From Proteinivorax tanatarense (lineage in GTDB: Bacteria > Bacillota > Proteinivoracia > Proteinivoracales > Proteinivoracaceae), in assembly GCF_040267685.1 (NCBI RefSeq), contig NZ_CP158367.1, positions 2,666,001 through 2,730,000 of the forward strand: a DNA stretch of 64,000 bases, given 5' to 3'. A program made the translations under genes and the position numbers. The stretch's first letter is position 1, and the number at the start of each line of letters is the position of its first letter. This document shows, one piece after another, positions 1-15,946 of this stretch. Below the pieces are notes generated by a model. That model had not been told where the DNA came from. It saw nothing but the letters and a program-made list of their open reading frames with translations, and did no database searches.

Positions 1-742
1 ATAACTGCTAAACTTCCTCCACTTTCAGGAAAGGCTGCTGGAAGAACAAGTCCTGCAATTAAGCCTACAATACCGGAAGCCATAACTGGTCCATGACCTA
101 AACGATGAGATATGGCATAGGTTATAACACCTGCAAATACTGAACATATTATTATTTTCACCATCATATCTACGTTAGGAATTTCTGCACTTAAAAATTC
201 CTGACCTGTTAACAACCCGGTAACTATGCACCCTGTAAAGGCAATGGTACCAAATTTACCACCAAACCCGTTAAAGACTATTTTAGATATGACAAATACT
301 ATACCTGCAATTGCTCCTGCAACAATTATTGAAATATAAGAAGAGAGCAGTGCCTCCGAAGCCATACCCACAAAAGCTCCTGTATATAATGGTGCACCTA
401 GTTTGGGAACTACCAAAGCCGCTAAAACCCCCACAGCCCCTGCAGCTACCACTGCACCAAGTTGAAGCTCTACACTTAAAAAGTACGTTATAACAGCTCC
501 TATAACTATTGAAAGAAAGTTATAAAAGTCATTGACATCAAACTTAGTTGTCTCATAATTACTAACTAGATTTAACGATATTTCTTTTTTCATTGCGTAT
601 ATAATACCTACAATCGCGATAGTTAAAACCGAAGAAGTAAAGAAGTGGTTTGCAGCAAAGGCAGCATAAAGCCCTGCAGTATATAAAATTAAACACATAA
701 CAACTAAAATTACATAGCCTAAAGTCCAAATTGCTTTTTGCA
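1..742 (-). CDS. Polytopic membrane protein, fused form (3' end off the window)
   Basis: An open frame begins at ATG 740-742, after a TTTAGGAGGC-like ribosome site, and runs without a stop off the left edge (247 codons visible). It is very hydrophobic, with many Ala/Gly/Val/Ile membrane segments. Near residue 160 it carries FGGKLGTIA. I cannot name the family with certainty. Its first half resembles the small protein at 31581-31952 and its second half (HRLGHGPVMASGIVGLIAGL) resembles the protein at 31149-31568, so this is a fused version of that pair. It is the last visible gene of the NuoF-like/hydrogenase/formate dehydrogenase operon; its paralogues sit beside fdhD. A role in formate or ion movement linked to formate dehydrogenase is an inference from context only. 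Confidence 0.75.
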
Positions 743-761
743 TAGTTTGCCTCCTTTTTTT

Positions 762-808
762 AATTTTCAACAATGCGGCTCAACGATAGAGCCACATTGT
801 TGAAAATT
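762..808 (-). other. 20-bp intercistronic stem-loop after fdhF
   Basis: Arms 762-781 and 789-808 pair over 20 bp. The only imperfect pair is a G-U wobble in the minus-strand RNA (it would be A-C in a plus-strand RNA), which argues for function in the fdhF transcript. It begins 2 nt after the fdhF stop. It is followed by A-rich sequence and the next ribosome site rather than a U run, so it looks like an mRNA-stabilising or processing element rather than a simple terminator. Confidence 0.6.
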
Positions 809-810
809 TT

Positions 811-3507
811 TTAACCCAGTTTTTCTATATTAACACCTGTAACCTTCAAACTTGGAATACTAGCTTTAGCATCTAATAGTTCGGAGTTAGTTAACACGTT
901 TGCTCCATCTTTAAAGTGGAAAGGTACGCTAACTACTTTGTCAGAAACTAACTCTGTTATAAACGCTCTAGGTTTTATTTCACCTCTTGGTGAAGTTACC
1001 TTTACCACTTCTCCATTTTCTATCCCAAGCTTTTCTGCTGTGTTAGGACTGATTTCTACAAAGGTTTCATTGACAAGTTTGTTTACGCCCTCTGTTTTAC
1101 CAGTCATTGTCGAGGTGTGGTATTGATATAGGACACGGCCGCTGGTCATAATATAAGGATAATTACCTTTATCAGATAACTCCGGCGTTTCTTCAAATTC
1201 AACCGGCACTAGCAAGCCCTTACCCCTTGCTGGCTGGTTTGAGTGTAAGAATTTGGTACCTGGATGCTCTTCATTTGGACAAGGCCACTGAATTCCTTCA
1301 TCTTTAATGCGTTCGTATGTGATACCAGCATAAGATGGAGTTACAGCTCTTATTTCTTCGAATACCTCTTCTGCAGTTTCAAAGTTATTCTCATATCCTA
1401 AAGTTCTCATTAGTTCAACAAATATTTGCCAATCTGGTTTTGCTTCTCCAGGAGCGCTCACTGCTTTTCTTACCCTTTGGACTCTTCTTTCGGTATTAAC
1501 AAAAGTTCCATCTTTTTCTGCAAAGGCAGCAGCTGGTAAAACAACATCAGCAAGCTCTGCTGTCTCCGTTAAAAATATATCCTGTACAACTAAGAAACTT
1601 TCTTTTAGCCCCTTAATTACATGGTTTGTATCGGGATCGGATAACACAGGGTTTTCTCCCATAATGTAAAGCATTTTAATTTTTCCGCTTTCTGCATGTT
1701 TCATCATATGGGTCATGGTCATTCCATTTTCCCCAGATAGCTTTGTTCCCCAAGCCTTTTCAAACTTTTCCTGAGCTTTTTTATCGGCAACAGGCTGATA
1801 TCCAGTATAAACGATAGGTAAAGCACCCATATCACAGGCTCCCTGTACGTTGTTTTGACCCCTTAGCGGGTTAATTCCTGTTCCTTCTCTCCCCAAGTTG
1901 CCAGTAACCAAAGCTAGATTAGATAGACTGATAACACCGTCTGTTCCTTTATGATGTTGAGTTATTCCCATGCAGTACATAATACTTCCTCTATCGTATT
2001 TAGCGTACATTCTGGCAGCTTTTCGGATATCTTCTGCATCTACCTCACAGATCTCTGCTACCTTTTCTGGGGTGTATTTTTTCAATACTTCTTTCAACTG
2101 CTGGAAATCTTCAGTATTTTTCTCAATATACTCTTTGTCCTCTAGACCTTCCTCTAAAATCACATTTAGCATTCCATTTGATAATGCAATACTGGTACCT
2201 GGTTTAATTTGCAAAAATACATCAGATACATCCTCCAGTGAAATTTTGCGAGGATCAGCTACTATTAATTTGGCGCCTTTTTTAACGGCTCTTCTAATAC
2301 GCGCTCCAATAACAGGGTGATTTTCTTCTGTATTTGTACCTGTTAAGAATATAACTTCTGCCTTGTCTATTTCTTCGATACTATTTGTCATAGCTCCACT
2401 TCCAAGTGTAGTTGCAAGACCTGCAACTGTAGAGCTGTGTCAGAGTCGAGCACAGTGATCAACGTTGTTTGTACCGATACCTGCCCTAAAAAACTTAGTC
2501 ATCATATAATTATCTTCTGTTAAAGCTCTAGCGGAAGAAAATCCACCGATAGCATCGGGTCCATCTTGTTCTTTAATTTCAGTTATTTTATCCGCTATTT
2601 TTTGGTAAGCTTTCTCCCAAGTTGCTTCTATAAGCTCACCATTTTCTCTTACAAGTGGTTTGCTTAGTCTATCAGGGTGGTTAATAAAATCAAAAGCGAA
2701 CTTGCCTTTTACACAAAGTAAACCTTGATTCAACTTGCCTTTTACGGGATTGACCTCTACTATCTTGTCATCCTTAGTGGAAAGTTCTAGCTGACAACCA
2801 ACTCCACAGTACGAACAGGTAGTTTCAACTTTTTCTGTTTCCCAGTACCTATATTTATGCTTTGCTTTGGGCATCAATGCCCCTACTGGACAGTTTGAAA
2901 CACAGTTTCCACAGGATACACAATCTGTCTTGGTTAACTCTCTCTCAATGTTTTGGGGAGCTTTAACATACCCCTGTATTCCTTGTCTTACTAGAGATAA
3001 CCCTTCTACACCCTGTAACTGCGTGCAGATTTCTACACATTTTCCGCAGGCGATACATTTCTCTCTATCAATGTAGTAAAAAGGATTTTTGTCGAAAAGT
3101 TCCTTTGGAGCTATATTTTCTCTGAAATAGTCAGGGCCTTGAACATCGTATTTATAGCAATACGTTTGCAAATCACAATGCCCCGACTTTTCACAGGTTA
3201 AACAATCTAAAGGATGATCAGCTAAAATCTCTTTAAGAATCTCTTGTCTAGCTCTAACTACATTGTCCGATTCTGTCCAAATTTCCAAATTATCCTTTAC
3301 TATTACATCAGTAGAATCAACTAAACTCTCTTCTCCTTTTATTTCAACAATACTTAAGTCAGCCCCACTATCTACAGTTTTCATATCAAAGCGTTCGTCA
3401 TAATTTAAAGTTGGTATATTTATGTCGTTTAAGCGAGCTGCATTAAAAACACTTATTCCCTCTTCACATTGAACAGGTCGTCCGTTAATTTTAATCGTTA
3501 TCATCAT
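811..3507 (-). CDS. fdhF: Selenocysteine formate dehydrogenase, NuoG-like N-terminus
   Basis: Molybdenum/tungsten bis-MGD formate dehydrogenase catalytic subunit of about 898 residues, read through an in-frame UGA at 2440-2442 (residue 356) in the motif DHCARL-U-HSSTVAGL. The two open frames on either side of the UGA are one gene. Order of parts: a ferredoxin-like fold that has lost its [2Fe-2S] cysteines, a His-Cys3 [4Fe-4S] site (HPLDCLTC..GHCDLQ), two ferredoxin [4Fe-4S] motifs (CIACGKC, CVSCGNC), the FDH [4Fe-4S] (CSYCGVGC), then the MGD domains. I chose ATG 3507, which lies 5-6 nt after AGGGG; the GTG at 3513 lies in the ribosome site. It overlaps the end of hydA. Expected to be cytoplasmic and to form a complex with the hydrogenase encoded upstream. 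Confidence 0.95.
2410..2428 (-). promoter_or_regulatory. SECIS element of fdhF
   Basis: Eleven nt after the UGA the mRNA can form AGTTGCA-GGUCU-TGCAACT, a stem with the GGUCU apical loop also present in the E. coli fdhF SECIS that binds SelB. It supports reading the UGA as selenocysteine. Confidence 0.85.
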
Positions 3508-5260
3508 ATTCACCCCTTACATCAATATTTTTCTTTGAGCGATCAATATAGTGGGTATGAAGTAAATCATGAGCTTTATGTCCACCAGGCTGTCCTAAAT
3601 AATTATCATACAATTTGCTAATTAGAGGATTCTCATGAGAACGGCGCAAGATAGAGCTTCCGTCTGTTTTATAAATACCTGCCATTCTCTTTTTGACTGT
3701 TTCCATAGAATCTGGGATAGGAGCTCCTCCTCCGTTAATGCAACCTCCTACACATCCCATTATTTCAACAAAGTGGTATTTTTTTTCACCATTATCAATC
3801 TTTTTCATTAGCTCCTTTGCAGCAGCTGTACCATGGACAACAGCAATTTTAACCTTCATATCTGCTATTTTAATCTCTGCTTCTTTAGCATTTGTCAGTC
3901 CTCTTACACCTTCATACTCTATTTTGTCTAGTTCACCATCACTAAGTTTCCAAGCAACTGTTCTTAAAGCTGCTTCCATAACTCCACCTGTTGTACCAAA
4001 AATTCTTCCAGCACTAGTGTGATCTCCTAAAAAGTTGTCAAAACTTTCTTCGTCAAGCTTTGCAAACTGAATTTTTTCCATTTTTATCATTTTTGCTAGT
4101 TCTCTCGTTGTCAGTACCGCATCTACATCTTTTAGGCCGTTGACTTTTAGTTCTTCTCTATCTGCTTCGAATTTTTTAGCAGTACAAGGCATTATAGATA
4201 GGCTAAATATTTTTTGAGGATCTAAATCATTAATCTCTGCATAATAGGATTTAGACAAAGCACCGAACATTTGTTGTGGTGATTTACAAGAAGATACATT
4301 TTCCAATAAGTGGGGATAATTATGTTCTACATACTTTACCCAACCTGGAGAGCAAGATGTTAACAACGGAAGCTTTTCACCTTTTTGGACTCTGTCAATA
4401 AACTCAGTTCCCTCTTCCATTATTGTCAAGTCTGCTGTAAAATCGGTGCTAAATACTTTGTCTACACCTAGCTTCCTTAAGGCTGCGTTGGTTTGTCCTG
4501 TAACATCAGTGCCAGGCTCCAACCCAAACTCTTCACCCAAAGTGTGTTTAACAGCTGGTGCTGTTTGTACCACTACGTGTACATTAGGATCATTTATAGC
4601 TGTACGTACTCTTTTGATGTCATTTTTCTCTACTAACGCCCCTACAGGACATACTTTTATACATTGACCACAGTTTATACAATCGGTTTCTAAAATAGGT
4701 TCCTTTTCTTTAGTGTTAATGACTGTGTCATGTCCTCTTTCAGTATAATCATAAATGCCTATGTCCTGTGTTTCCGAACAAACTCTAACACAGTTTCCAC
4801 ATACTATACATTTATTTACATCTCTAGTAATCGAAGTACTTGATAAATCAAGGACTTCTTTTTGTGGCAAAGTCTCCAGCAATTGCTCTTTTCTATTAAC
4901 ATCATATTGATAACAAAGGTTTTGCAATTCACAATCGCCAGCAACTTTATCGCAAGTCAAGCAATCATTTGGGTGATTGGCAATTAAAAGTTCTAACGTC
5001 GCTTTTCTAGAATCTTTAATTTTCTCTGTTTCTGTGCGCACTATCATTTTATCTTTTACTTTAGTATTACAGGAAGCCAAAAGTTCCTCTTCTCCATCAA
5101 CCTCCACAACACACATCCTACAATTTCCCTCATTATTCAAATCGGGATGAGTACATAAAGTAGGGATGTTAACTCCATTTTTCTTACATACATCCAAAAT
5201 TGAATTATCTTCCGTAGCAACTACATTTTTATCGTTTATAGTTAATCCAACTGTTGCCAT
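3491..5260 (-). CDS. [FeFe]-hydrogenase catalytic subunit, M3 type
   Basis: About 589 residues. It has a plant-type [2Fe-2S] domain (Cys 36, 47, 50, 64), a His-Cys3 [4Fe-4S] (HPNDCLTC..GDCELQ), two ferredoxin clusters (CIVCGNC, CINCGQC), then the H-cluster domain with TSCSPGW, MPCTAKKFE and EIMGCVGGCINGGG, and a small-subunit-like tail ending near LYDNYLGQPGGHKAHDLL. Ser stands where C. pasteurianum hydrogenase I has the proton-relay Cys 299 (TSCCPGW). It catalyses reversible H2 oxidation/proton reduction. I chose ATG 5260, 7 nt after AAGGAGG, over the ATG at 5266 which abuts the ribosome site. It lies between the NuoF-like gene and fdhF, so the three products probably form one complex. Confidence 0.95.
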   Translation of the reverse strand: MATVGLTINDKNVVATEDNSILDVCKKNGVNIPTLCTHPDLNNEGNCRMCVVEVDGEEELLASCNTKVKDKMIVRTETEKIKDSRKATLELLIANHPNDCLTCDKVAGDCELQNLCYQYDVNRKEQLLETLPQKEVLDLSSTSITRDVNKCIVCGNCVRVCSETQDIGIYDYTERGHDTVINTKEKEPILETDCINCGQCIKVCPVGALVEKNDIKRVRTAINDPNVHVVVQTAPAVKHTLGEEFGLEPGTDVTGQTNAALRKLGVDKVFSTDFTADLTIMEEGTEFIDRVQKGEKLPLLTSCSPGWVKYVEHNYPHLLENVSSCKSPQQMFGALSKSYYAEINDLDPQKIFSLSIMPCTAKKFEADREELKVNGLKDVDAVLTTRELAKMIKMEKIQFAKLDEESFDNFLGDHTSAGRIFGTTGGVMEAALRTVAWKLSDGELDKIEYEGVRGLTNAKEAEIKIADMKVKIAVVHGTAAAKELMKKIDNGEKKYHFVEIMGCVGGCINGGGAPIPDSMETVKKRMAGIYKTDGSSILRRSHENPLISKLYDNYLGQPGGHKAHDLLHTHYIDRSKKNIDVRGEYDDND

Positions 5261-5280
5261 TTTCATACCTCCTTTAGCTT

Positions 5281-6438
5281 TTATTCCTTATGTTGAAGAC
5301 TCGCCATAATTGGATTTATAGCTTTATTTCCAAACCCACATAAAGAAGAATCTTTTATTGCTTTTGCAAAAAGCTCCACTAGTTTAACCTTATCCCGCTC
5401 TCCTTCAAAGACGGCTGGCACAAGATCCCCCATTCTCTTTAGTCCCTCTCTACATGTGGAACATTTGCCACATGATTGCTGTGAATTATGTTGCACTGAG
5501 TTAACAATAAGTTCTGTTAACCTTTTTTTATCTTCTATAACTTCTACAGGGCTCGCCCCAAGTAAAAAACCTTCCTTCTTTGAGGTTGCATAATCAATCT
5601 TTGTTGTTTTTAGTTGTTCCTCGGTTAAAACTCCACCTAAACTTCCCCCAACATTTATAGCATACAGGTTGGGAATGTTTATTCTTTCACTTGCTTTTTT
5701 AATTAGTTCTTCGAAGTTAGAGCCCAGCTCCATAGTAACTAGACAACCTTCCTGACCATTATTTACATAAAATACTTTGCATCCATAATTATCTGCTTCC
5801 CCCATAGTCTTAAACCATGAGCTTCCATTTTCCACTATTAAAGATATATTAATTAAAGTTTCTACGTTAGCAATAAATAGCTTGCTTTGCTGCCATGTAT
5901 TTTTGGCTTCTAAAAATGGGTAACGTCCGTGACTTAAATTTTCTTTATAATTAGTTAAAAGTGCTATGTCATTATTAAAAAAAATATTCTTTTCATCTAC
6001 ATCAATAATGTCAATTTTTAACTCTTTAGCCTTAAAATAACCCATTTTCCCCATTTGTTTAATAGTTAGTTTTAACATTCTACTAATCAACTGGTGGCTT
6101 TCGTTTATAAAAATGCTAACTTTTGATGCTTTTACCGCTTTTGCAGATAAAACTAAACCTTGAACTAAGTGGTAGGTATTCGATGAAGCTAAGCCATTAT
6201 CTAACTTTGAATTGCCGATATGCAAAACTACTTCTTTAGAGCCAGTATATTTTGCTACCTCTTCCATATAATTACCGATAAATATTTTTCTACCATCCCT
6301 GCTGAGCAGCTCAGCTTCTTTTATCTCTTTAATAACTTCTTCGCCTTTACTTTCTACGACAGCCATTGAGTCAAAAGCGAGTTTCTCCACATCATATTTT
6401 TCTAAATCTTGTTCGTTTAGAGATAAAACTCTTTCCAT
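5281..6438 (-). CDS. NuoF/HydB-like iron-sulfur subunit lacking visible flavin and NADH motifs
   Basis: 385 residues. The C-terminal [4Fe-4S] site of NuoF-type subunits is intact: SCGKCSTCREG followed about 40 residues later by LCGFG. The N-terminal half keeps only loose resemblance to the NuoF flavin domain: I cannot find the glycine-rich GRGGAGFPTG loop nor the ADEGEPGTFKDR-type stretch, and the protein is shorter than complex I NuoF (about 430-450) and much shorter than HydB. It is the first gene of the operon, with AAGGAGG well placed before ATG 6438. It may have become a structural or electron-wiring subunit that does not use NAD(P)H; this is inference from missing motifs. Confidence 0.8.
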   Translation of the reverse strand: MERVLSLNEQDLEKYDVEKLAFDSMAVVESKGEEVIKEIKEAELLSRDGRKIFIGNYMEEVAKYTGSKEVVLHIGNSKLDNGLASSNTYHLVQGLVLSAKAVKASKVSIFINESHQLISRMLKLTIKQMGKMGYFKAKELKIDIIDVDEKNIFFNNDIALLTNYKENLSHGRYPFLEAKNTWQQSKLFIANVETLINISLIVENGSSWFKTMGEADNYGCKVFYVNNGQEGCLVTMELGSNFEELIKKASERINIPNLYAINVGGSLGGVLTEEQLKTTKIDYATSKKEGFLLGASPVEVIEDKKRLTELIVNSVQHNSQQSCGKCSTCREGLKRMGDLVPAVFEGERDKVKLVELFAKAIKDSSLCGFGNKAINPIMASLQHKE

Positions 6439-6538
6439 CTTAAAACCTCCTTAAATTTCGTTTATAGATATCTCCCTGTAGCTACAGTACTTTTCCATCA
6501 CCTCCAAATACCTTTAAAATATTTATTGTTATATAAAG

Positions 6539-6554
6539 AGCAATTGTCATGCCA
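6539..6554 (-). promoter_or_regulatory. Sigma-54 promoter of the hydrogenase/formate dehydrogenase operon
   Basis: On the minus strand TGGCATGACAATTGCT matches the sigma-54 consensus TGGCAC-N5-TTGCW, with GG and GC separated by exactly 10 nt. It would start transcription about 90 nt before the NuoF-like gene. No good sigma-A promoter is visible in this leader. A perfect palindrome CTGTAGCTACAG lies in the leader at 6476-6487. Confidence 0.8.
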
Positions 6555-6608
6555 AAAATATAATTCTTAAAACCCGCCAAACATAGCCATGCACCTAACA
6601 TTTCAACC

Positions 6609-6723
6609 GTCCTAATTTTAGGACAAAATTCGAGCTATTTCATTTTTTTTCGCCTCAATCGCTTTATGCCAGTGAAGCAATTGAGAGTGTCTTTGTTTTC
6701 GGACATCGTCTTTAAACTAGGAC
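6609..6723 (-). promoter_or_regulatory. Three 16-bp enhancer-like sites (upstream activating sequences)
   Basis: Site 1 (6609-6624) is the perfect palindrome GTCCTAATTTTAGGAC. Sites 2 (6689-6704, GTCTTTGTTTTCGGAC) and 3 (6708-6723, GTCTTTAAACTAGGAC) match it at 12 and 11 of 16 positions and keep GTC at one end and GGAC at the other. They lie about 55-185 bp upstream of the sigma-54 promoter, the usual place for activator binding. The Fis-type HTH of the activator at 8875-11121 is the likely reader. Confidence 0.65.
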
Positions 6724-6741
6724 ACCTTTTTATCCCATGAT

Positions 6742-6797
6742 TTTAAACTAAAAAATGGTACCTGCTAGTAATAGCAGATACCATTTTTTAGTTTAAA
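6742..6797 (-). terminator. Intrinsic terminator of the MCP-fused sensor gene
   Basis: A long inverted repeat (arms 6742-6760 and 6779-6797, core TGGTATCTGCTA) with flanking A/T tracts. Its right arm overlaps the last codons and stop of the sensor gene. Confidence 0.8.
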
Positions 6798-8680
6798 TTG
6801 TTTTTTCCAGTTAGTTCAGAAGAAGTATTAGATAAATCTTCTAATGACGAATTTGTTTCCTCAGATATAGCCATAACGTTTTCCATTTTTTCTCCTACAA
6901 TGCTAATAACTTTATTAAGTTTATCTACTGAATCTTCTATGGTTTTTACACTCTTTACTCCACTACTATTATTTTTTTCTGTTTGGGATACCACAACCTC
7001 AGATTGTTCTGCAAGCTTTCTAACTTCCTCAGCAACAACGGCAAACCCCTTACCCGCGTCTCCTGCTCTGGCCGCTTCTATAGATGCATTTAAAGCAAGC
7101 AAGTTAATTTGTTCTGCAATTTCTACAATTTTGTTTGACATTTCTTCATGCTCCGAAAAAGTTTTCGTCAATAAATCAACGCTGTTAATAGTATCTTGAG
7201 ATGCAGTTTCTATATCTCCCATCTGACTGTTTATTTCATACATATCTTTAGCCGTCTCTTCTGAAACTTTGGTCAAATCATTAATAATGCTGTTTATATT
7301 TTCTGCCCCTTGCTTTATGTTTTCCAATAACATCTCTTGTTTTCGGGAGTTTTTTCTAGTTAACTCTGCATTTTGTCGTTCTTCATTTAACAACTTTTCC
7401 TGTTTGATTTCCCCTTCTCTTCTATTATATTCTATACAGTTTTCTAAAACGTTGTAATTTAAGGCAATAACTTTAACCATATCTTCACAACTTTTATAAC
7501 CACAAGCAGCACAATCAAAATTTTTATCTTCATCGGTTTTTTTGTGAAGTTTACTGTAAATTATATCCTTTTGATTTTGTTCAACCTCCTTCTCTTTCCA
7601 TCTATTATTATAAGTTACTTTAAAGTCATCTACCCGTAGCTTTTTCTCGAATTTTTTCATCATATCTCTTGGAGAAACTTTCGAAAAAAGCCCTTTCTTT
7701 TGTGCAGTTATTTTTTTAGTCTTCTCATACAAAATAGCATCCATTTCATCAGGGCTCATCATGTCTTCGGTAGCAGTTCCCAGCAAACATCCTTCTGAGC
7801 AATTAAGTATATCTATAACAAAAGGAAGCTTCCCCTGTTTTTTGTTGATACCAGATAAATAGTTTTGAACTAATTTAGGCCCTTCAATTTTTTTAATATG
7901 AAATCCCTTTCCATAAACCTGCTCAATACTTTCTTTTAATCCCCCAGGAGTGGGATACCAAAACCCTACTAAACTTTCAGGAGAGTCAAAGTTTTCTTCT
8001 TTTTCCCATTCCCCTTCTTTTCTATACAGCTCCATAATTTTCTTAAATGTAATGTTATAATCAATATGCTTATGTCTTCTGAATTCGTCGGTTTTTGCTA
8101 TACAAGGCGACAGTGCAGCTATATTCCCCTCAAACCCTTCATATTTTTTCAAATATATAGCTGCACAAGACATAGGTGAACCAACCGGGCTTAAATATTT
8201 TAATAAATTTGGATAATATCGTTCGATACTGTTCACAATCACAGGACATGGTTGAGAAATGATAGTTTGTATACTTTTTTCTTCAAAAATTTTCATATAA
8301 AGAAATGTAGTGATATCTGCCCCAAAGCTAACATCATAAATCAATTGGATTCCTTTACTCTTTAACCAAGCAAACACCTTTTTGTACTCATCGGGATAAT
8401 TTAACATAAAAGCAGGGGCAACTACTATGGATATTTTTTTGTTTTGCTGAAGATCTGTTAAAAGCTGCTCTATATCGTCTTGATAATATCTGGCTTGATG
8501 GGTACAAGCTTTTATACACTCTCCACATGTTATACACTCCTCATTTGCTATATCAACTTTTATTGCCCCAGATTCATCTTTAAAGGCTTTATTGGCCAAT
8601 ACTTGAGGGCATTCCCTAATACATTTATCGCATCCTGTACATTGTTCTTTATCGGTTTTTATTATTTTTTCTCCTAACAT
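6788..8680 (-). CDS. H-cluster-domain sensor fused to a chemotaxis (MCP) signalling domain
   Basis: 630 residues, no membrane segment, so cytoplasmic. Order: two [4Fe-4S] ferredoxin motifs ([23 protein letters not shown]), an [FeFe]-hydrogenase-like domain (about 65-330) that keeps the four H-cluster cysteines in [16 protein letters not shown] and NCSEGC, a C-x2-C-x4-C-x16-C cluster domain (CAACGYKSC), a coiled coil, then the MCP hairpin tip ([21 protein letters not shown]). It probably converts H2 or redox state into a chemotaxis-type signal. The RBS AGAGGAGG precedes ATG 8680. It has its own sigma-54 promoter and sits between the hydrogenase operon and the sigma-54 activator gene. Whether it binds a real H-cluster is unknown. 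Confidence 0.9.
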
Positions 8681-8740
8681 ATTTGTCCTCCTCTAAAGCT
8701 AATATAATATAGATCATTTAATTATATAAACAAATAATAT

Positions 8741-8756
8741 AGCAAATACTGTGCCA
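8741..8756 (-). promoter_or_regulatory. Sigma-54 promoter of the MCP-fused sensor
   Basis: TGGCACAGTATTTGCT on the minus strand is a full match to TGGCAC-N5-TTGCT, about 60 nt upstream of the start codon. I see no clear copy of the GTCC..GGAC sites in the 100 bp upstream; a short palindrome CTTAAAAATTATTAAG lies at 8801-8816. Confidence 0.85.
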
Positions 8757-8823
8757 GTAAAAAACAAGCTGCTTTCCCCTTATTTACTCCGCCCCATTAA
8801 CTTAAAAATTATTAAGTAAAAGA

Positions 8824-8862
8824 GGCTGCACCATTATAGGATAATCCTATGATGGTGCAGCC
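8824..8862 (-). terminator. Intrinsic terminator after the sigma-54 activator gene
   Basis: Arms 8824-8841 and 8845-8862 (GGCTGCACCAT..) form an 18-bp stem with a 3-nt loop and one mismatch, followed on the minus strand by TCTTTTACTT. It lies 12 nt after the stop codon of the activator. Confidence 0.85.
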
Positions 8863-8874
8863 ATTGTCATATCT

Positions 8875-11121
8875 CTAAGATTTTTCTGTTGTTAAGTTAT
8901 ATTTTTTTAGTTTTTCATAGAAATTTGATCGGGATATATTTAAAAGCTTAGCAGCTTTAGTCCTGTTATTATTAGATCGTTTTAGTGCATTAATCAGTAC
9001 CTCTTTTTCCACTCGCTCTAAAATTTCGTCTAAAGGTTTGTTAGGATCAGTTATATTAGTGCCTTGACTTTGATTTTCCCAAATAGATTCAGGTAAATGT
9101 TCTGGTAAAATGGTATCTTCCTCTACAAGATTTAACAATCTCTCTAATAGGTTTTCTAATTCCCTTACATTACCAGGCCAACTATAGTTGCACAACATTT
9201 CTTTTGCCTTTGCGCTAATGGATTTGCAAGGCAATTTATGTTCTTTAGAAATCTTATCTTTGAGTGAATCAATTAGTAAATTTATATCATCTTTATGCCT
9301 CTGCCTTAAAGCTGGAATGGTAAAGGTAAGCACGTTCAGTCTGTAAAATAGGTCTTCTCTAAAGCCACCTTTATTTATTTCTTGTTTTAAATCTTTATTA
9401 GTAGCAGCTATAATTTTAACATCTAGTTTTATTGATTTATCCCCACCAATCCTCATAACTTTTTTATCTTGTATTACCTGCAAAATTTTAGCTTGCATGA
9501 CAGGACTCATATCGCCTATTTCATCTAAGAAAATGGTGCCTTTATTTGCCTGTTCAAATTTCCCTATTTTACCACCTTTTTTAGCTCCTGTAAACGCTCC
9601 TTCTTCATACCCAAATAATTCCGACTCTAAAAGCTCATGGGGTATGGCGCTACAGTTAATTTTAACAAAGGGTTTGTCTTTTCGTTCTCCAAACCTATGA
9701 ATAGTTTCGGCAAAAAGACCTTTACCTGTTCCACTTTCACCTAAAAGTAACACTGTAGAGTCGCTTTTGCTGGCTTTAAAAACAAAGTTCTTAGCTGCCA
9801 GTATTGACTGGGAGCAGCCAACTATGTTTTGGTCTATTTCGTTATACAGTTGCAATAGATTCTGAGCCTTTTTCTGATAGTGAGTCACTCTATTCTCAGT
9901 TAGCTTCAGCAAATAAGGAAGACACATCTCCACCTCAGCAACACCGTGATATACAGCCACTGCTTTATCTCTACAAGTTTCATAACCACAGGCTCCACAG
10001 TTTAGTTCGTCCTGTTTCTCAAATTTCTCACTATATTCTAAAATTCTTACTATTTCTTTTTCTGAAGGGAAACGTTTTTTCTTTTTTAAAACACGAAATT
10101 CTCTCGACAAGTCAATTTCAACGTAATAATCTGGAGATTTGGGGGCCTTTTGCTTTTTTTCTTTTGCAAAATTAACAACTTTATTTTTTTTATATTGATT
10201 AGTACTTTTATCATCATAAAAATCCGGTCCATTTATACATCCTTTACAATATAAGATATCAATAAGTGCCGGTTTGAGCTCATTATTTTCAATACCGTTT
10301 AAAGTTTCTAAAACTTCCTCTTTTCCTTCTACCACAGACACATCATTATTTAGTAAATCGGTATCAATATTAGCTGCTTTTAGCAGCCCACCAGATATAG
10401 GAAACAACTGACCTAAATACTCTTCACTAAGATAGTCCAGGGGTGCTTTCTGACAATCTTCTATATTAATTTTTTTCTTTTTTAATAAGCCCTCTAATTC
10501 AGAAAACAACAGCGCATAATCTACTTTTCCATCTACAGACTCATGGGTAATTTCTGACTTTTTGGCAACACATGGGCCTATAAAAACAACTTCTACCTGT
10601 TCATCCCAACTTTGTTTTACAAGATCAGCCATGGCTATCATTGGTGAAACAATATGAGCTAGATTATCAATTAATTTAGGATAATGTTTTTTGACTATAT
10701 TAATTACGACTGGACAGGGAGATGTTAATATAGGTTTATCCAACGGCTTTTGATAAAGTCTTTTGTACTCTTGTGCTACAATCTCGGCTCCTTGGGCTAC
10801 TTCATAAACTTGACTAAACCCCAGTTTTTTTAATGCTCCCACTAGTTTAAAGGGGTCTTGCTTAAAAGAGGCCACAAAAGATGGAGCCATTAAAGCTACA
10901 GTTTTTGTATTTTTATTGTTAAGAGATGTTTCTACATCAATAACAAAATCCTTTAAGACTTTATTGCTCTGGCTACAGGCTTTTACACAAAAGCCGCAGC
11001 TTACACATTCTTCTTCAATTAAGTTTGCTTGCTCACCTTTAAAACTAATAGCATTTACTGGGCAATGACGCACACAGCAATAGCATCTTTTACATTTTTT
11101 GTCTTGAGATGCTATTATCAT
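8875..11121 (-). CDS. H-cluster-domain sensor fused to a sigma-54 AAA+ activator
   Basis: 748 residues. Order: ferredoxin-type [4Fe-4S] motifs (CKRCYCCVRHCP, CVSCGFCVKAC; 1-60), a hydrogenase-like domain (about 70-340) with TSPCPVV, GPCVAKKSE and YCKGCINGP, a C-x2-C-x4-C-x16-C cluster domain (CGACGYETC, near 385), AAA+ ATPase with Walker A GESGTGKG, the sigma-54 contact loop GAFTGA and Walker B FLDEIGD, and a C-terminal Fis-type HTH. The third H-cluster loop has Cys-x2-Cys rather than Cys-x3-Cys. It probably senses H2 or redox state and opens sigma-54 promoters; two such promoters lie immediately downstream. RBS CTAGGAGG precedes ATG 11121. It follows hydF and may also be read from the maturase operon. 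Confidence 0.93.
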   Translation of the reverse strand: MIIASQDKKCKRCYCCVRHCPVNAISFKGEQANLIEEECVSCGFCVKACSQSNKVLKDFVIDVETSLNNKNTKTVALMAPSFVASFKQDPFKLVGALKKLGFSQVYEVAQGAEIVAQEYKRLYQKPLDKPILTSPCPVVINIVKKHYPKLIDNLAHIVSPMIAMADLVKQSWDEQVEVVFIGPCVAKKSEITHESVDGKVDYALLFSELEGLLKKKKINIEDCQKAPLDYLSEEYLGQLFPISGGLLKAANIDTDLLNNDVSVVEGKEEVLETLNGIENNELKPALIDILYCKGCINGPDFYDDKSTNQYKKNKVVNFAKEKKQKAPKSPDYYVEIDLSREFRVLKKKKRFPSEKEIVRILEYSEKFEKQDELNCGACGYETCRDKAVAVYHGVAEVEMCLPYLLKLTENRVTHYQKKAQNLLQLYNEIDQNIVGCSQSILAAKNFVFKASKSDSTVLLLGESGTGKGLFAETIHRFGERKDKPFVKINCSAIPHELLESELFGYEEGAFTGAKKGGKIGKFEQANKGTIFLDEIGDMSPVMQAKILQVIQDKKVMRIGGDKSIKLDVKIIAATNKDLKQEINKGGFREDLFYRLNVLTFTIPALRQRHKDDINLLIDSLKDKISKEHKLPCKSISAKAKEMLCNYSWPGNVRELENLLERLLNLVEEDTILPEHLPESIWENQSQGTNITDPNKPLDEILERVEKEVLINALKRSNNNRTKAAKLLNISRSNFYEKLKKYNLTTEKS

Positions 11122-11138
11122 ATTATACCATTCCTCCT

Positions 11139-11159
11139 AGGTTTTATTTTTAAACCTAT
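11139..11159 (-). other. Short inverted repeat in the activator leader
   Basis: TAGGTTT and AAACCTA flank a 7-nt spacer directly upstream of the activator ribosome site. It could be an operator or a leader hairpin limiting translation. A TATAAT-like box lies further upstream near 11190. Confidence 0.35.
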
Positions 11160-11204
11160 TAGATTAATACTTTAAAGTGATGTTTTTGTTATTATAACAT
11201 AGTA

Positions 11205-12416
11205 CTATAAATTTTTAGCTGGAGATTTTAGGTTAAAGAATTCAACACATCGAGGAAAGGCACCAGTAAAATAAGCTAAAACGATTCCATAGTTTGTGAT
11301 AGAAATGTTTTTTTCCAGACAATGCTTTATTCTGTTTGTCATAGTTTTTTTATTTAACATACAGGAACCACAGTGTATAACTAAATCATAGCTATCCATA
11401 TTTTCAGGAAAATCACTTCCCATTTTAAAATCGAATTTAATATTTTCATCGATATGCTTTCTGATTAGATTAGGTATTTTTACTCTCCCAATATCTTCAT
11501 GAGAATGATTGTGAGTGCAGCTTTCTGAAATAAGGATTTTAGATTCACTATTCATTTCTTTTAATTTTTCTAACCCCTCTATAAATATTTGTAAATCCCC
11601 TTTGTATCTCGCATATAGCACCGAAAAGCTAGTTAAGTTCATATCTTCAGGTATAATCTGTGTAACTTTTCCAAAAGCCTGAGAATCCGTAATAACTAAG
11701 TCAATGTTTTGAATTTCTTGTAGGGATTCCGCTAGTTCTGTATCCCTAACTACGTGACATTTAATGCCATGGTCTAGGCAGTCCCTTAACACTTGTACTT
11801 GCGGTAATATTAACCTTCCTTTAGGGGCTTCAGAATCTATAGGAACCACCATTACCACATTACCCCCATAAGGAATTAAATCACCGATAATAGGAGGATC
11901 TGTTTCTTTTTCCTGCAACCTATTGATAATCTCTTCTTTTAATCTTAGGATGTTCTCCTGGTGTAGTGCTGAAACAGTTAAAGGGTTATCTAATTTCTGA
12001 GTAAAAGCATCTAAGGCATCCTTATTTACGCAATCTATTTTGTTAACCACAGTAAGGAATGGAATATTATATTTTTTAAATTTTTTTATTGCCTTATGGT
12101 AAGATTTCAAGTCAACATCACTGCCATCCAAAACATAGATAGCAAAGTCTGTCCGCTGCAATATTTTTAATGTTTTACTTACTCGCAAGTTTCCTAATTC
12201 ACTATCATCGTTTAACCCTGCTGTATCAATAAATACAACAGGCCCAAATGGAATAAGCTCCATACTCTTAATTACAGGGTCGGTAGTAGTCCCTTTAATA
12301 TCAGAAACTATTGAAATTTCTTGACCTATTATAGCATTTAGTAATGTTGACTTTCCTGAATTGGTCTTTCCATAAATAGCGATGTGTTTTTTACTTCCCC
12401 TTGGTGTGTTTTGCAT
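11205..12416 (-). CDS. hydF: [FeFe]-hydrogenase maturation GTPase HydF
   Basis: GTPase and scaffold on which the 2Fe subcluster is assembled before transfer to hydrogenase. GTPase motifs: GKTNSGKS (P-loop), GTTTDP, DTAGL and NKID; the C-terminal cluster-binding Cys are in ESCTHNHSHED and HCGSCML. I chose ATG 12416 because it sits after AGGAGAGG and 13 nt beyond the hydG stop; an upstream in-frame start at 12458 would overlap hydG and lacks a ribosome site. About 403 residues, normal for the family. Last of the TM1266-like/hydE/hydG/hydF operon. Confidence 0.95.
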   Translation of the reverse strand: MQNTPRGSKKHIAIYGKTNSGKSTLLNAIIGQEISIVSDIKGTTTDPVIKSMELIPFGPVVFIDTAGLNDDSELGNLRVSKTLKILQRTDFAIYVLDGSDVDLKSYHKAIKKFKKYNIPFLTVVNKIDCVNKDALDAFTQKLDNPLTVSALHQENILRLKEEIINRLQEKETDPPIIGDLIPYGGNVVMVVPIDSEAPKGRLILPQVQVLRDCLDHGIKCHVVRDTELAESLQEIQNIDLVITDSQAFGKVTQIIPEDMNLTSFSVLYARYKGDLQIFIEGLEKLKEMNSESKILISESCTHNHSHEDIGRVKIPNLIRKHIDENIKFDFKMGSDFPENMDSYDLVIHCGSCMLNKKTMTNRIKHCLEKNISITNYGIVLAYFTGAFPRCVEFFNLKSPAKNL

Positions 12417-12429
12417 ATAGTATCCTCTC

Positions 12430-13806
12430 CTATAAGAAAATATCTCTTTTACCGTCATATACCATTTTCAAACAATTAAGTGTACGCCTTCTAAGCTCAT
12501 TGCTGCTGATCTCTTTTACTTTGGAATAAACTAGCTTTTCACCTTTTTCCAAAAGCTCTCTATCCCCGTAGTTTAGTATAAATTCCATAAAAGTAATTAA
12601 GGCATTAGGGGTACAAACGTTCTGAATCTCTCCTTCTTTAGCCATTTTTGCAAATTTTTCACCTGTTCTTCCTTTCCTGTAACACGACGTACAATAGCTA
12701 GGGATATGTCCACAGTCTACAAGTTCTTTTAAAACTTCGATGGGTGCTCTGTTATCGTCAACATCAAACTGTTTATTTTCACCACCTTCAGCTGAATTTT
12801 TATAGGCATTAACACCGGTACATGAGCCTGCACTAATCTGAGATACCCCATACTCGATAACTTCCTTCCTCATCTCAGGTGTCTCTCTAGTGGAAAGAAT
12901 TAACCCAGTATATGGCATAGCTAACCTTAAAATTGCCACTATCTTTTTAAATGATTCATCATCTAAAATATGGGGAAAATCATTAATATCCATCCCTTCG
13001 GCTTTCTTTAATCTAGGTACGGATATAGTGTGAAAACCGACACCATATTGGTTTTCTAAGTGCAGATTGTGCATCATCAAAGCTAAAATTTCAAATTTGT
13101 AATCAGCTAAACCAAATAGCACTCCACCACCTACATCATCTATTCCTGCCTCCATTGCCCTATCGAATGCTTTTAAGTGATAATCATAGTTGCCTTTTTT
13201 TGAGTTTGCATGGACTCTTTGAAAGGTTGGCTTGTGATAGGTCTCTTGAAACAAAATATAGGTTCCAATGTCTGCTTGTTTAAGTTTTTTATAGTTTTCT
13301 ACAGAAGTGGCAGCTATGTTTACATTTATCCTTCTTATATCTCCTTGTTTAGAATAGGTTGAGTATATTGTTTCAATCCCTTCTAAAACGTAGTCAATGT
13401 CACAATTTACTGGATCTTCCCCAACTTCTAAGGCTAACCTTTTATGCCCCATATTCTCCAAAAGAATAACCTCTTCTTCAATCTGTTTTTGATTGAGTCT
13501 CTGCCGCTTAAAATTATTATCCCTTTTATATCCACAATACAAACAGTTATTCACGCAATAATCACTAATATATAGAGGTGCAAAAAGCACTATTCTGTCG
13601 CCATAAATATCCTTCTTTATTTTTCCAGCCGCTTTATAAATCTTATCTAATTGTTTTTTTTCTGAAACTTGCAACAAAGTTGCTACATCCCTGTATGATA
13701 ACCCCTTTTTCTCCAAACCTTTTTGTAGAATTTCATCGATATCTCTTTTGCCATGCCCTATAGTTTCTTCAAGAATATCTTTAATAATATCTGCTTTAAT
13801 ATAAAT
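12430..13806 (-). CDS. hydG: [FeFe]-hydrogenase maturase HydG (tyrosine lyase), probable ATT start
   Basis: Radical-SAM enzyme that makes CO and cyanide ligands from tyrosine. The SAM-cluster motif is CVNNCLYC and the C-terminal cluster has CTSC with a third Cys about 22 residues later. The only conventional start is TTG 13716, which has no ribosome site and cuts off the family's N-terminal helix. In-frame coding continues upstream (YIKADIIKDILEETIGHGKR) to ATT 13806, 6 nt after GGAGGAG and overlapping the hydE stop as TAATT, exactly like the common TAATG junction. From there the protein is 458 residues, the usual length. No ATG/GTG/TTG exists between. Confidence 0.93.
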   Translation of the reverse strand: MYIKADIIKDILEETIGHGKRDIDEILQKGLEKKGLSYRDVATLLQVSEKKQLDKIYKAAGKIKKDIYGDRIVLFAPLYISDYCVNNCLYCGYKRDNNFKRQRLNQKQIEEEVILLENMGHKRLALEVGEDPVNCDIDYVLEGIETIYSTYSKQGDIRRINVNIAATSVENYKKLKQADIGTYILFQETYHKPTFQRVHANSKKGNYDYHLKAFDRAMEAGIDDVGGGVLFGLADYKFEILALMMHNLHLENQYGVGFHTISVPRLKKAEGMDINDFPHILDDESFKKIVAILRLAMPYTGLILSTRETPEMRKEVIEYGVSQISAGSCTGVNAYKNSAEGGENKQFDVDDNRAPIEVLKELVDCGHIPSYCTSCYRKGRTGEKFAKMAKEGEIQNVCTPNALITFMEFILNYGDRELLEKGEKLVYSKVKEISSNELRRRTLNCLKMVYDGKRDIFL

Positions 13807-14852
13807 TATAATCTCCTCCAGTTTTTATGATCTCCGCGAGACATATCTAAAGAGTAACCTATGTTTCTCACCTTCCCCTCAATACACTGTCGACATTCAG
13901 CAGCCTCATCTCCAACACAAATCTTCCCATCATAAAGTGCATATTTTTCTCTAACGCTAGTAGGTGATAAGTTAGGCATTACAACATTTGCGCCAAACTT
14001 TATACCTTGCTCACGTCCTGTAGGATCAATACTACCTAGAGCAGTGGTTGCAGGCAGGAGGACCTTGGGTAGCATAAGTCGTACAATGGCTAGCAAAGTT
14101 ACAACTTGAGTAATAGAGCCATTGGATGCTCCCTCCAGCGGGGTATTTTCATGAGCAATAAAAGGACCTATCCCTACCATTTCTGGTTGCAACTTCTTTA
14201 AAAACAACAAATCTTCCACATAATCTTCGTTAGATTGCCCTGGTAAACCCACCAAAAAACCAGCCCCTACTTGAAATCCAATTTTTTTCAAATCCCAAAG
14301 GCATTTTTTTCTACTTTGAAGACACATGTTAGGATGATACTTATTATATATAGTGGGTGAAGCGGTTTCGTGCCTTAAAAGGTACCTATCCGCCCCTGCT
14401 TCATAGTATTGTTTTAGAGAACTAAAGTTTTTCTCTCCTAAAGATAACGTTAAAGCACATTCAGGAAAAGTCTTTTTAATAGATTTTACTAAGTCAACTA
14501 TTCTTTCATCTGAGTAATAGGGGTCTTCTCCACCTTGTAGCACAAAGGTTCTGTATCCAAGCTTATAACCAAGTTTGCAGCAATCCAAAATTTCTTCTAA
14601 ACTAAGCCTGTACCTGTCTGCATTTTTATTATCATACCTTATTCCACAATAAACACAGTTTTGGATACAATGGTTAGTAAATTCTATAAGCCCTCTGGTA
14701 TAAACTGCCTTCCCATACTCTTGAACTCTTCTTTCATTAGCTTTGTCCCTTAAATAAGTAAGGCTATCCCCGTCCATGTTATTTAACAAATATAAAAACT
14801 CGTCTCGACTTAAAGTTGTTTCCTTAAAAAGCTTGTCTATAGTTGTTTTCAT
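13806..14852 (-). CDS. hydE: [FeFe]-hydrogenase maturase HydE (radical SAM)
   Basis: 348 residues. Radical-SAM motif CIQNCVYCG, then a TIM-barrel pattern typical of HydE/BioB (QGGEDPYY, GFLVGLPGQS). HydE takes part in building the azadithiolate-bridged di-iron unit. A C-terminal ECRQC pair may bind an accessory cluster. Its ATG overlaps the stop of the preceding small gene (ATGA), and its stop overlaps the start of hydG. Confidence 0.95.
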   Translation of the reverse strand: MKTTIDKLFKETTLSRDEFLYLLNNMDGDSLTYLRDKANERRVQEYGKAVYTRGLIEFTNHCIQNCVYCGIRYDNKNADRYRLSLEEILDCCKLGYKLGYRTFVLQGGEDPYYSDERIVDLVKSIKKTFPECALTLSLGEKNFSSLKQYYEAGADRYLLRHETASPTIYNKYHPNMCLQSRKKCLWDLKKIGFQVGAGFLVGLPGQSNEDYVEDLLFLKKLQPEMVGIGPFIAHENTPLEGASNGSITQVVTLLAIVRLMLPKVLLPATTALGSIDPTGREQGIKFGANVVMPNLSPTSVREKYALYDGKICVGDEAAECRQCIEGKVRNIGYSLDMSRGDHKNWRRL

Positions 14853-15106
14853 ACCATAACCTCTTTCTTTGATATAGCTGTTTTTACCGTTACGCTGTCT
14901 ATGCTACCTAATTTCCCTGTAAAACTATTGATTTCATTTAAACTTCCCACAACTGTAATTGAAACTACTGAAATTCCCTGCTCATTAAAAGGGATACCCA
15001 TTCTTCCTCTAACAATTCTACCGTAATTTGAAACAACTCTATTAAACTGTTCTTGACACTTTTGAGGCTCCTCTAAAATAGAGCTTATAACAGCTATTTT
15101 TTTGAT
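14849..15106 (-). CDS. TM1266-like iron-only hydrogenase system regulator, ATC start
   Basis: 85 residues with the signature of the TM1266 family found with hydEFG: KKIAVISSILEEP, GRIVRGRMGIPF, GISVVSITVVG, TGKLGSIDSVTVKTA. The fold is ferredoxin-like (ACT/NikR-like). The frame has no ATG, GTG or TTG between an upstream in-frame TGA and the middle of the gene. ATC 15106 lies 7 nt after GGAG and gives the family's normal N-terminus (initiator-KKIAVI). Alternative: a slip or sequence error in the run of seven A at the start, which would let GTG 15115 be used. Its stop overlaps hydE. Confidence 0.8.
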   Translation of the reverse strand: MKKIAVISSILEEPQKCQEQFNRVVSNYGRIVRGRMGIPFNEQGISVVSITVVGSLNEINSFTGKLGSIDSVTVKTAISKKEVMV

Positions 15107-15150
15107 GAGACCACTCCCTTTTCTGAATTTTCAATCTTATTAAACAAAAT

Positions 15151-15178
15151 AAAACAACTCCTAAAAAGAAGTTGTTTT
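15151..15178 (-). terminator. Attenuator-like hairpin in the hyd maturase leader
   Basis: AAAACAACT and AGTTGTTTT (15151-15159, 15170-15178) form a 9-bp stem followed on the minus strand by ATTTTGTTT, about 45 nt before the TM1266-like gene. It looks like a weak leader terminator. Confidence 0.45.
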
Positions 15179-15257
15179 CAAAAGACGCAACTTATCGAAA
15201 ACTCCCTTTTAGATCAGATTGACTTGAATCTTTTCTTTTAGGTGTTTTATTTTGTTG

Positions 15258-15331
15258 ACCAAATTTAAAAGGTGCCCCTAAGTAAATTTGGTGATTGTGA
15301 ATAGTTTAACAATCATTTCATTTGTTGTCAA
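15258..15331 (-). promoter_or_regulatory. Sigma-A promoter and palindrome of the hyd maturase operon
   Basis: Minus-strand -35 TTGACA (15326-15331) and -10 TAAACT (15303-15308) with a 17-nt spacer. Just past the expected start site lies ACCAAATTTA (15258-15267) and its exact complement TAAATTTGGT (15283-15292), separated by 15 nt: an operator with two half-sites or a leader stem. The leader before the first gene is about 190 nt. Confidence 0.7.
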
Positions 15332-15372
15332 TAACTTTTTTCTTCCTCTATTTTACAACCTCTCCTAAAGGT

Positions 15373-15777
15373 TTAATCCTTAACCAAAGACCTCATTAAA
15401 ACTATGCCTGCTGCTACATTTATTAGATAATTACTAAGTGCTCCTTGTAAGATTTTTGCTGGCCCATATGTGGCGATACTAACCCATTCAAACCAAAGGT
15501 TTTGAGGAATAATGCTTATGATAATCAAAATACAGCTTAAAACTAGCAAAGATATATCAACAGAAAATCCCTCTTTAAACAGTTTTAAAACCCTACGCCA
15601 TTCGATAAGCACACCAAAAAGGATAACTAAAGTTTTTAGGAAAATAATATTCAATATTGGAACCTCATAGGTTGAACCAGCTATTTCTCTAATCTCATTT
15701 TGCTGCCAATTTATTAAAGTTAATAATACATAACCTATGCCAAGTAACAAAACAAACTTTAAAATTTTTTTTTGCAC
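15373..15777 (-). CDS. Small integral membrane protein of unknown function
   Basis: About 134 residues with four likely membrane helices (KFVLLLGIGYVLLTLI, IIFLKTLVILFGVLI, ISLLVLSCILIIISII, LINVAAGIVLMRSL). I do not recognise the family. I prefer GTG 15777, about 8 nt after AGGGGG; a start at 15861 would place that ribosome site inside the gene. It stands alone between the maturase operon and guaA. Confidence 0.6.
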   Translation of the reverse strand: MQKKILKFVLLLGIGYVLLTLINWQQNEIREIAGSTYEVPILNIIFLKTLVILFGVLIEWRRVLKLFKEGFSVDISLLVLSCILIIISIIPQNLWFEWVSIATYGPAKILQGALSNYLINVAAGIVLMRSLVKD

Positions 15778-15890
15778 AATAAATCCCCCTTTTAAAATTT
15801 TAGCACTAGTAAACCTACTTCTATATTTTATTAAAATCTCCTTCTTATAATTTATACTCAAATAAGCATTAAGTTTTTACATAAACAAAA

Positions 15891-15929
15891 AGATGGTTAA
15901 AAAAGCTTTAAGAGCTTAATTAACCATCT
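15891..15929 (-). terminator. guaA terminator
   Basis: AGATGGTTAA and TTAACCATCT with an inner AAGCTT-type stem, followed by TTTTTG on the minus strand, 17 nt after the guaA stop. Confidence 0.8.
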
Positions 15930-15946
15930 TCTCATTTTTTGCTAAG

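Follow-up and report, generated by a model that had tools for sequence, protein, structure and literature searches.

What controls the transcription of a hydrogenase and formate dehydrogenase operon in Proteinivorax tanatarense, and which signal does the regulator read? The question arises from a stretch of 64,000 nucleotides (the window). In a sequence-only reading of this stretch, it had been proposed that a sigma-54 promoter and three enhancer sites precede the operon, and that the sensor-activator encoded at 8875-11121 joins them into a local circuit responding to H2.

A sigma-54 promoter ahead of the operon

The operon and its promoter are arranged as follows:

6539..6554, minus strand: sigma-54 promoter (-24/-12) TGGCATGACAATTGCT, serving the nuoF-like/hydA/fdhA operon
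5281..6438, minus strand: nuoF-like, first gene of the operon, 385 aa (PF10589 matched; PF01512 at 22.0 bits, under the cut-off of 31.2)
3491..5266, minus strand: hydA, catalytic group A [FeFe] hydrogenase (NCBIfam A6), 591 aa (NF040763, 826.8 bits, cut-off 765)
811..3513, minus strand: fdhA, formate dehydrogenase with a NuoG-like N-terminus (TIGR01591, 626 bits for the C-terminal part alone)

The promoter TGGCATGACAATTGCT has the GG-N10-GC core, with TGGCAY..TTGC, of sigma-54-dependent promoters. The spacing claimed for it earlier was borne out: it matches TGGCAYGN4TTGCW with 0 mismatches and is the sole exact match in the 64-kb window. Exact matches number five in the 3.09-Mb genome, this one among them, and a comparison of coordinates placed all five within about 6 kb of some sigma-54 activator domain. 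When up to one mismatch was allowed, 51 matches were found genome-wide, compared to 9 for a reversed-pattern control. The genome encodes rpoN. The promoter stands about 100 bases from the start codon of the first operon gene (6438), and it is unchanged in G001, a genome of the same genus.

The operon may encode a formate hydrogenlyase or H2-dependent CO2 reductase, as judged from its gene content. In its NuoF-like subunit, the glycine-rich FMN/NADH motif is gone (SRDGRKIFIGNYM, compared to GRGGGGFPTGLKW in another NuoF of the genome), and the alignment shows that the 4Fe-4S site SCGKC..CREG...CG is retained; together, these two traits suggest a nucleotide-free bridge between FdhA and HydA. Relatives of this subunit with more than 31% identity were found in the same genus only, and some match was present in 50 of 61 genomes (E <= 1e-25). 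In fdhA, an in-frame TGA at 2440-2442 (minus strand, context ARL*HSST) probably encodes selenocysteine; a search of window positions 1-16000 gave no Rfam match over threshold for a selenocysteine-insertion element.

Three candidate enhancer sites upstream of the promoter

Three inverted repeats lie 54-170 bp upstream of the promoter, and all read TGTC-N10-GACR on the minus strand:

6608..6625, minus strand: proximal candidate enhancer site TGTCCTAAAATTAGGACG (core palindrome GTCCTAATTTTAGGAC at 6609-6624; identical in G001)
6688..6705, minus strand: distal-doublet candidate enhancer site TGTCCGAAAACAAAGACA (core GTCTTTGTTTTCGGAC at 6689-6704; identical in G001)
6707..6724, minus strand: distal-doublet candidate enhancer site TGTCCTAGTTTAAAGACG (core GTCTTTAAACTAGGAC at 6708-6723; 19 bp from its neighbour)

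The three 16-bp GTC..GGAC sites announced by the sequence-only reading are thus found at 6609-6624, 6689-6704 and 6708-6723, and the first, GTCCTAATTTTAGGAC, is indeed a perfect palindrome. A feature overlooked at that time is their layout, a doublet plus one, with spacings of 19 and 80.

When the 233-bp upstream stretch was shuffled 5000 times with its dinucleotides preserved, TGTC-N10-GACR matches averaged 0.0022 per shuffle and never reached three; this pattern, like GTCYTN7GGAC below, was picked post hoc from the sites themselves. The form GTCN9GGAC gave 6 strand-matches in the window (4 places) compared to 1.38 expected, a number reached in 0 of 100 shuffles. For GTCYTN7GGAC, the 3.09-Mb genome has 12 distinct places, and these 115 bp account for 3 of the 12.

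The nine other GTCYTN7GGAC places were weighed as members of a larger regulon. Six of them were read (all except 133221, 1309259 and 1345468), and none of the six had a sigma-54-like promoter within 1.5 kb. Four of the six lie inside ORFs, and a larger regulon by way of these places was set aside. By the patterns used, neither a sigma-54 promoter nor a GTC..GGAC site was present at L124-L126, the remaining hydrogenase loci of the genome. The comparison with G001 was also considered as a footprint. The region differs at 17 positions, of which one, base 6708 in the TGTCCTAGTTTAAAGACG site and the sole difference among the three sites, falls in the 64 bp of elements. As this is not significant (even 0 would correspond to P = 0.03), the comparison was dropped; the region is too similar between the two genomes to give a clear footprint.

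HydR combines a hydrogenase module and a sigma-54 activator

The 748-aa candidate activator is named HydR here:

8875..11121, minus strand: hydR, two [4Fe-4S] ferredoxin motifs, Fe_hyd_lg_C, a Cx2Cx4Cx16C FeS motif, sigma-54 AAA+ and HTH_8

By its domain content, HydR is a complete sensory-type [FeFe]-hydrogenase module joined to a sigma-54 AAA+ domain and a Fis-type HTH. The AAA+ sigma-54 interaction domain has the Walker A, Walker B and GAFTGA motifs of an enhancer-binding protein; the Fis-type HTH_8 is present, as are upstream inverted repeats, which are clade-specific. The N-terminal part has the traits of sensory group C/D [FeFe] hydrogenases: two N-terminal [4Fe-4S] motifs, an H-domain, a C-terminal Cx2Cx4Cx16C and no C299. 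In an alignment (A1) of 31 of the 41 HydR sequences introduced below, C136, C184, C292 and C295, the four cysteines of Cx2Cx4Cx16C and the eight ferredoxin-type cysteines are invariant, as are K187 and E190; conservation also extends to the Walker and GAFTGA residues.

A predicted model of HydR (mean pLDDT 83, pTM 0.55) agrees with this division. Residues 1-345 superpose on the [FeFe] hydrogenase CbA5H (Z 38.4, 2.6 A, 338 aligned), and residues 428-684 on FleQ (Z 30.2, 1.5 A, 252 aligned).

HydR departs from CpI at two points. The last two H-cluster cysteines of CpI are spaced Cx3C, a spacing also seen in the six other PF02906 proteins of the genome; in HydR this motif, L3, is Cx2C in 41 of 41 rows, and the geometry of the H-cluster may therefore differ. 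In addition, the proton-transfer cysteine (C299 of CpI) is replaced in all HydR rows. The output domain, sigma-54 AAA+/HTH, places HydR outside HydDB types C1, C2 and C3. HydR as an equivalog of NorR, NifA, PrdR or FhlA was excluded by the NCBIfam cut-offs.

Promoter and enhancer layout accompany hydR in other genomes

Full-length relatives of HydR (E <= 1e-120) were found in 43 of 398 genomes from the phylum. Beyond the window's own, there were 48 HydR places, of which 40 were fetched and 8 left out, so that 41 loci were available with the window included. A TGGYAYN5TTGC promoter was present on the same strand, at most 450 bp downstream of hydR, at 31 of the 41 loci, where 0.0069 per locus is expected; both the reversed pattern and the stretch upstream of hydR gave 0 of 41. 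Among the ten loci without the standard match, L088 and L100 have TGGAAT instead, and L087 has TGGCAAGG; the promoter is 1.3 kb further on in L085, divergent in L086, deeper inside the operon in L099, and located before a hydA-like gene about 5.6 kb off in L108 and L109. L098 and L115 had no sigma-54 promoter at the expected place behind hydR.

The genes directly downstream, identified by Pfam on ten example proteins, were [NiFe] hydrogenase subunits at 15 of 40 loci, hydA operons on the same strand at 6, peptidase U32 at 10 (mostly with mutS2), and other, cut off or differently arranged genes at the remaining 9. The targets of HydR would then include hydrogenases of two unrelated kinds, [NiFe] or [FeFe]. 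Non-hydrogenase genes also follow hydR-linked promoters: the U32 peptidase genes of the 10 loci just mentioned, and others in L101, L105 and L118. At L106, L107, L110, L112, L113 and L119-L122, which we take to be Moorella-like, as are the f16-type loci, the first reading frame after the hydR-linked promoter is a conserved one of about 60 codons, and peptidase U32 comes next. In L106 the small ORF reads MAQVLAKVEY...LNEAYARLDERYNCLRSNWDWY; the small protein is a possible hydR target.

Palindromes of the form TGT..ACA (17-18 bp) were then sought between hydR and the promoter in 32 stretches. At least one was present in 19 stretches and at least two in 16, for a total of 47 sites; the corresponding means after shuffling were 1.30, 0.04 and 1.34. 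By the rule used, 13 of the 32 stretches had none, including all nine U32-type loci scanned, and the Moorella-like loci (f16 and similar) had no clear enhancer palindrome. The sequence of the palindrome is clade-specific (TGTCTAAAAAATAGACA in family f51, TGTAAAGAAA-TATACA in f14, TGTTCAA-TTGAACA in f45), and its layout is constant: at the 11 loci with at least three sites, a distal doublet spaced 17-18 bp is accompanied by a third site 58-83 bp nearer to the promoter. L111 has a fourth site. The nearest relatives of HydR, at L084 and L085 (54% and 52% identical), have spacings of 19 and 69, and the paralogue at L087 has 20 and 78; in these three loci, the sites were chosen by eye. In all, the doublet-plus-one layout was seen in the window and at 14 other loci (doublet 17-20 bp, third site 58-83 bp) belonging to at least five families, in counts that are not independent because several of the loci are close relatives.

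The link that had been drawn between activator, three sites and promoter is well supported by the promoters at 31 of 41 loci, by the palindromes in 19 of 32 stretches (1.3 when shuffled), and by a spacing in the window that matches that of relatives. Two other explanations must be weighed against it. The operon could be mainly transcribed by sigma-A, the sigma-54 motif and the repeats being fortuitous; this is extremely unlikely, since promoter and repeats exceed chance, are retained in G001 and fit the layout of the family. Alternatively, the promoter could be sigma-54-dependent and the sites bound by another enhancer-binding protein, for instance one responding to formate or nitrogen. Strong sigma-54 activator domains other than that of HydR number about a dozen in the genome, and sites of the TGT-N-ACA type are common to many such activators (PMC6615313). 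Against this, HydR is the sole activator domain within 10 kb, hydR and the promoter stay together in G001, the doublet-plus-one layout recurs before other hydR-linked operons, and no sigma-54-like promoter lay within 1.5 kb of the UAS-like places read (6 of 9 others). We therefore regard a different activator as quite improbable. The reading that we retain, and hold to be probable, is that HydR docks on the three sites and switches on the nuoF-like/hydA/fdhA operon as a one-component activator that would read H2, CO or redox state through an H-cluster and accessory clusters.

The signal read by HydR

An indication of the signal comes from the maturases of the H-cluster. In the window, hydE, hydG and hydF stand in this order immediately before hydR, on the same strand:

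13806..14852, minus strand: hydE, H-cluster maturase (TIGR03956, 525.5 bits, over cut-off)
12430..13716, minus strand: hydG, H-cluster maturase (TIGR03955, 577.4 bits, over cut-off)
11205..12458, minus strand: hydF, H-cluster maturase (TIGR03918, 534.7 bits, over cut-off), immediately upstream of hydR

In three other genomes, G059 (one contig, 99% complete), G097 (99%) and G131 (94%), HydR is the only PF02906 match and HydE, HydF and HydG all score over their cut-offs. At L104, L114 and L116, hydG-hydF directly precede hydR, ahead of [NiFe] hydrogenase operons. That the three maturases are maintained with HydR as their only visible client speaks for an H-cluster in HydR, and for H2 or CO as its signal. 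We infer, as did the sequence-only reading, that the HydR circuit responds to H2.

HydR could play the same role at the enhancer and yet sense redox state (or O2) through its [4Fe-4S] clusters, its hydrogenase fold lacking the two-iron subcluster. The shortening of L3 to Cx2C and the replacement of C299 in all rows would agree with this, as would the invariance of the eight ferredoxin-type cysteines and of the fifth cluster motif. A further point in its favour is that four genomes of family f14, G022, G106, G139 and G192 (99% complete), encode HydR and have no HydE, HydF or HydG over cut-off. However, these maturase-poor genomes also have a catalytic HydA, with canonical motifs in the three that were read (G022, G139 and G192, at L134-L136), so that the missing maturases are not decisive against an H-cluster in HydR; their absence from HydA-bearing genomes would be a separate puzzle. 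In addition, the four cysteines that ligate the cubane never vary, nor do K187 and E190, and C299 is also absent from TamHydS, which is characterised and active with H2 (PMC8163306). Given the three genomes in which HydR is the sole PF02906 protein beside HydE/F/G, we consider a purely redox-sensing HydR unlikely.

The sign of the response is a separate matter. H2 might keep HydR inactive, with activation at low H2, or HydR might repress in one of its states, which would amount to negative feedback. Either sign would agree with the sequence, and the operon could both make and consume H2. Tat-type [NiFe] hydrogenases, on the other hand, are usually uptake enzymes and are induced by H2 in other systems, and HydR also precedes enzymes of this type (15 of 40 loci). 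Negative feedback, a variant that overlaps the favoured explanation, is somewhat unlikely.

Proposed mechanism and known systems

The promoter, the protein architecture and the pairing, across the family, of hydR, promoter, palindromes and hydrogenase operon can all be read directly from the sequences. On this basis, HydR would act as a one-component bacterial enhancer-binding protein. Its N-terminal module would bind H2 (or CO), or read the redox state, by means of the H-cluster and the accessory [4Fe-4S] clusters, and the Cx2Cx4Cx16C cluster domain would relay the signal to the sigma-54 AAA+ ATPase. HydR dimers would occupy the three TGTC-N10-GACR sites, whose arrangement as a distal doublet and one proximal site is observed, and three dimers would supply the six subunits of an AAA+ hexamer. 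The hexamer would then remodel the sigma-54 RNA polymerase at 6539-6554, and the operon would be turned on.

FhlA of E. coli is a sigma-54 activator of formate dehydrogenase and hydrogenase whose GAF domains sense formate. HydR would resemble it as a sigma-54 activator acting on formate dehydrogenase and hydrogenase genes, and it scores 255.7 of 830 bits with the FhlA NCBIfam model, below the cut-off. NorR of E. coli, an NO-sensing one-component activator, also joins a metal-centre sensor to AAA+ and HTH domains; it senses through a GAF domain that contains non-haem iron, whereas HydR has a hydrogenase module in this place. With the NorR model, HydR scores 299.4 of 476 bits over the AAA+/HTH part only, again below the cut-off. 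Three enhancer sites are described as necessary for NorR, whose oligomer they scaffold (PMC2941729).

In Cupriavidus necator, the HoxBC-HoxJ-HoxA cascade likewise connects a hydrogenase-type sensor to a sigma-54-dependent activator of hydrogenase genes (PMC10073562). The Hox system is made of separate parts, with a [NiFe] sensor and a kinase, whereas in HydR a single chain comprises both the activator and a sensor of the [FeFe] type. The sensor module resembles the group C/D proteins TmHydS and TamHydS, with two N-terminal [4Fe-4S] motifs, an H-domain without C299 and a C-terminal Cx2Cx4Cx16C (PMC8163306); unlike these, and unlike HydDB types C1-C3, HydR is tied to a sigma-54 activator and its L3 is Cx2C. 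The sensory types described for HydDB are histidine-kinase (C1), chemotaxis (C2) and phosphatase (C3) only. How group C/D [FeFe] hydrogenases transmit their signal is stated to be open (PMC8163306), and their sensory role has been called putative (PMC8924675).

As for the regulatory side, sigma-54 regulons of Clostridiales are described as having a local enhancer-binding protein and inverted-repeat UASs, several per operon and mostly 100-250 bp upstream (PMC6615313). The proposed HydR circuit resembles them in its local activator and multiple inverted-repeat upstream sites; Table 1 of that study has no hydrogenase/formate dehydrogenase target group. A full-text search of the open-licence literature found no published sigma-54 activator with an [FeFe]-hydrogenase sensor, and no sigma factor is named in the relevant parts of PMC12905484 and PMC13040438.

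What appears to be new is the linkage in cis of a sensory [FeFe] hydrogenase to a sigma-54 activator. We lean slightly towards the view that HydR is the founding member of a class of sigma-54 activators that sense H2 as one-component proteins. This class would be present in many families of the phylum, with an H-cluster pocket modified to Cx2C and with [FeFe] or [NiFe] targets, and would act through fast-changing enhancers whose doublet-plus-one layout is fixed; HydE/F/G of one family would be kept solely for the H2 sensor of a transcription factor. With sensor, ATPase and DNA-binding domain in one chain, and promoter and candidate enhancer sites at hand, H2 signalling would become accessible to a reporter or in-vitro transcription assay. 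If the proposal is true, it would define a route of H2 sensing without a [NiFe] sensor-kinase cascade, and it could provide a compact H2 biosensor.

Other loci in the window and in the same genus

A second sigma-54 promoter, absent from the earlier reading, lies between hydR and an MCP-hydrogenase gene:

8741..8756, minus strand: second sigma-54 promoter TGGCACAGTATTTGCT, 1 mismatch, before the MCP-hydrogenase gene (TGGCATAGTATTTGC in G001)
6788..8680, minus strand: MCP-linked sensory [FeFe]-hydrogenase-like protein, HydDB C2-like (Fe_hyd_lg_C and MCPsignal)

By domain content, the product of 6788-8680 belongs to HydDB C2 (chemotaxis). No enhancer palindrome was recognised in the 118 bp between hydR and the promoter at 8741-8756, which may use the same three sites, 2 kb away, or none.

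The second HydR paralogue of the genus, L087 (G001:C1:2451001-2471000), has its own TGTAGACGAAAATCTACA-type sites, which precede genes for a molybdopterin oxidoreductase, an FeS protein and a 1007-aa HydA fusion.

Elsewhere in the window, 17899-19983 and 22203-24260 (minus strand) presumably encode a pair of similar membrane proteins whose C-terminal parts are transglutaminase-like; each lies beside a DUF58-like gene. From their ORF translations, the two clusters look like a duplication.
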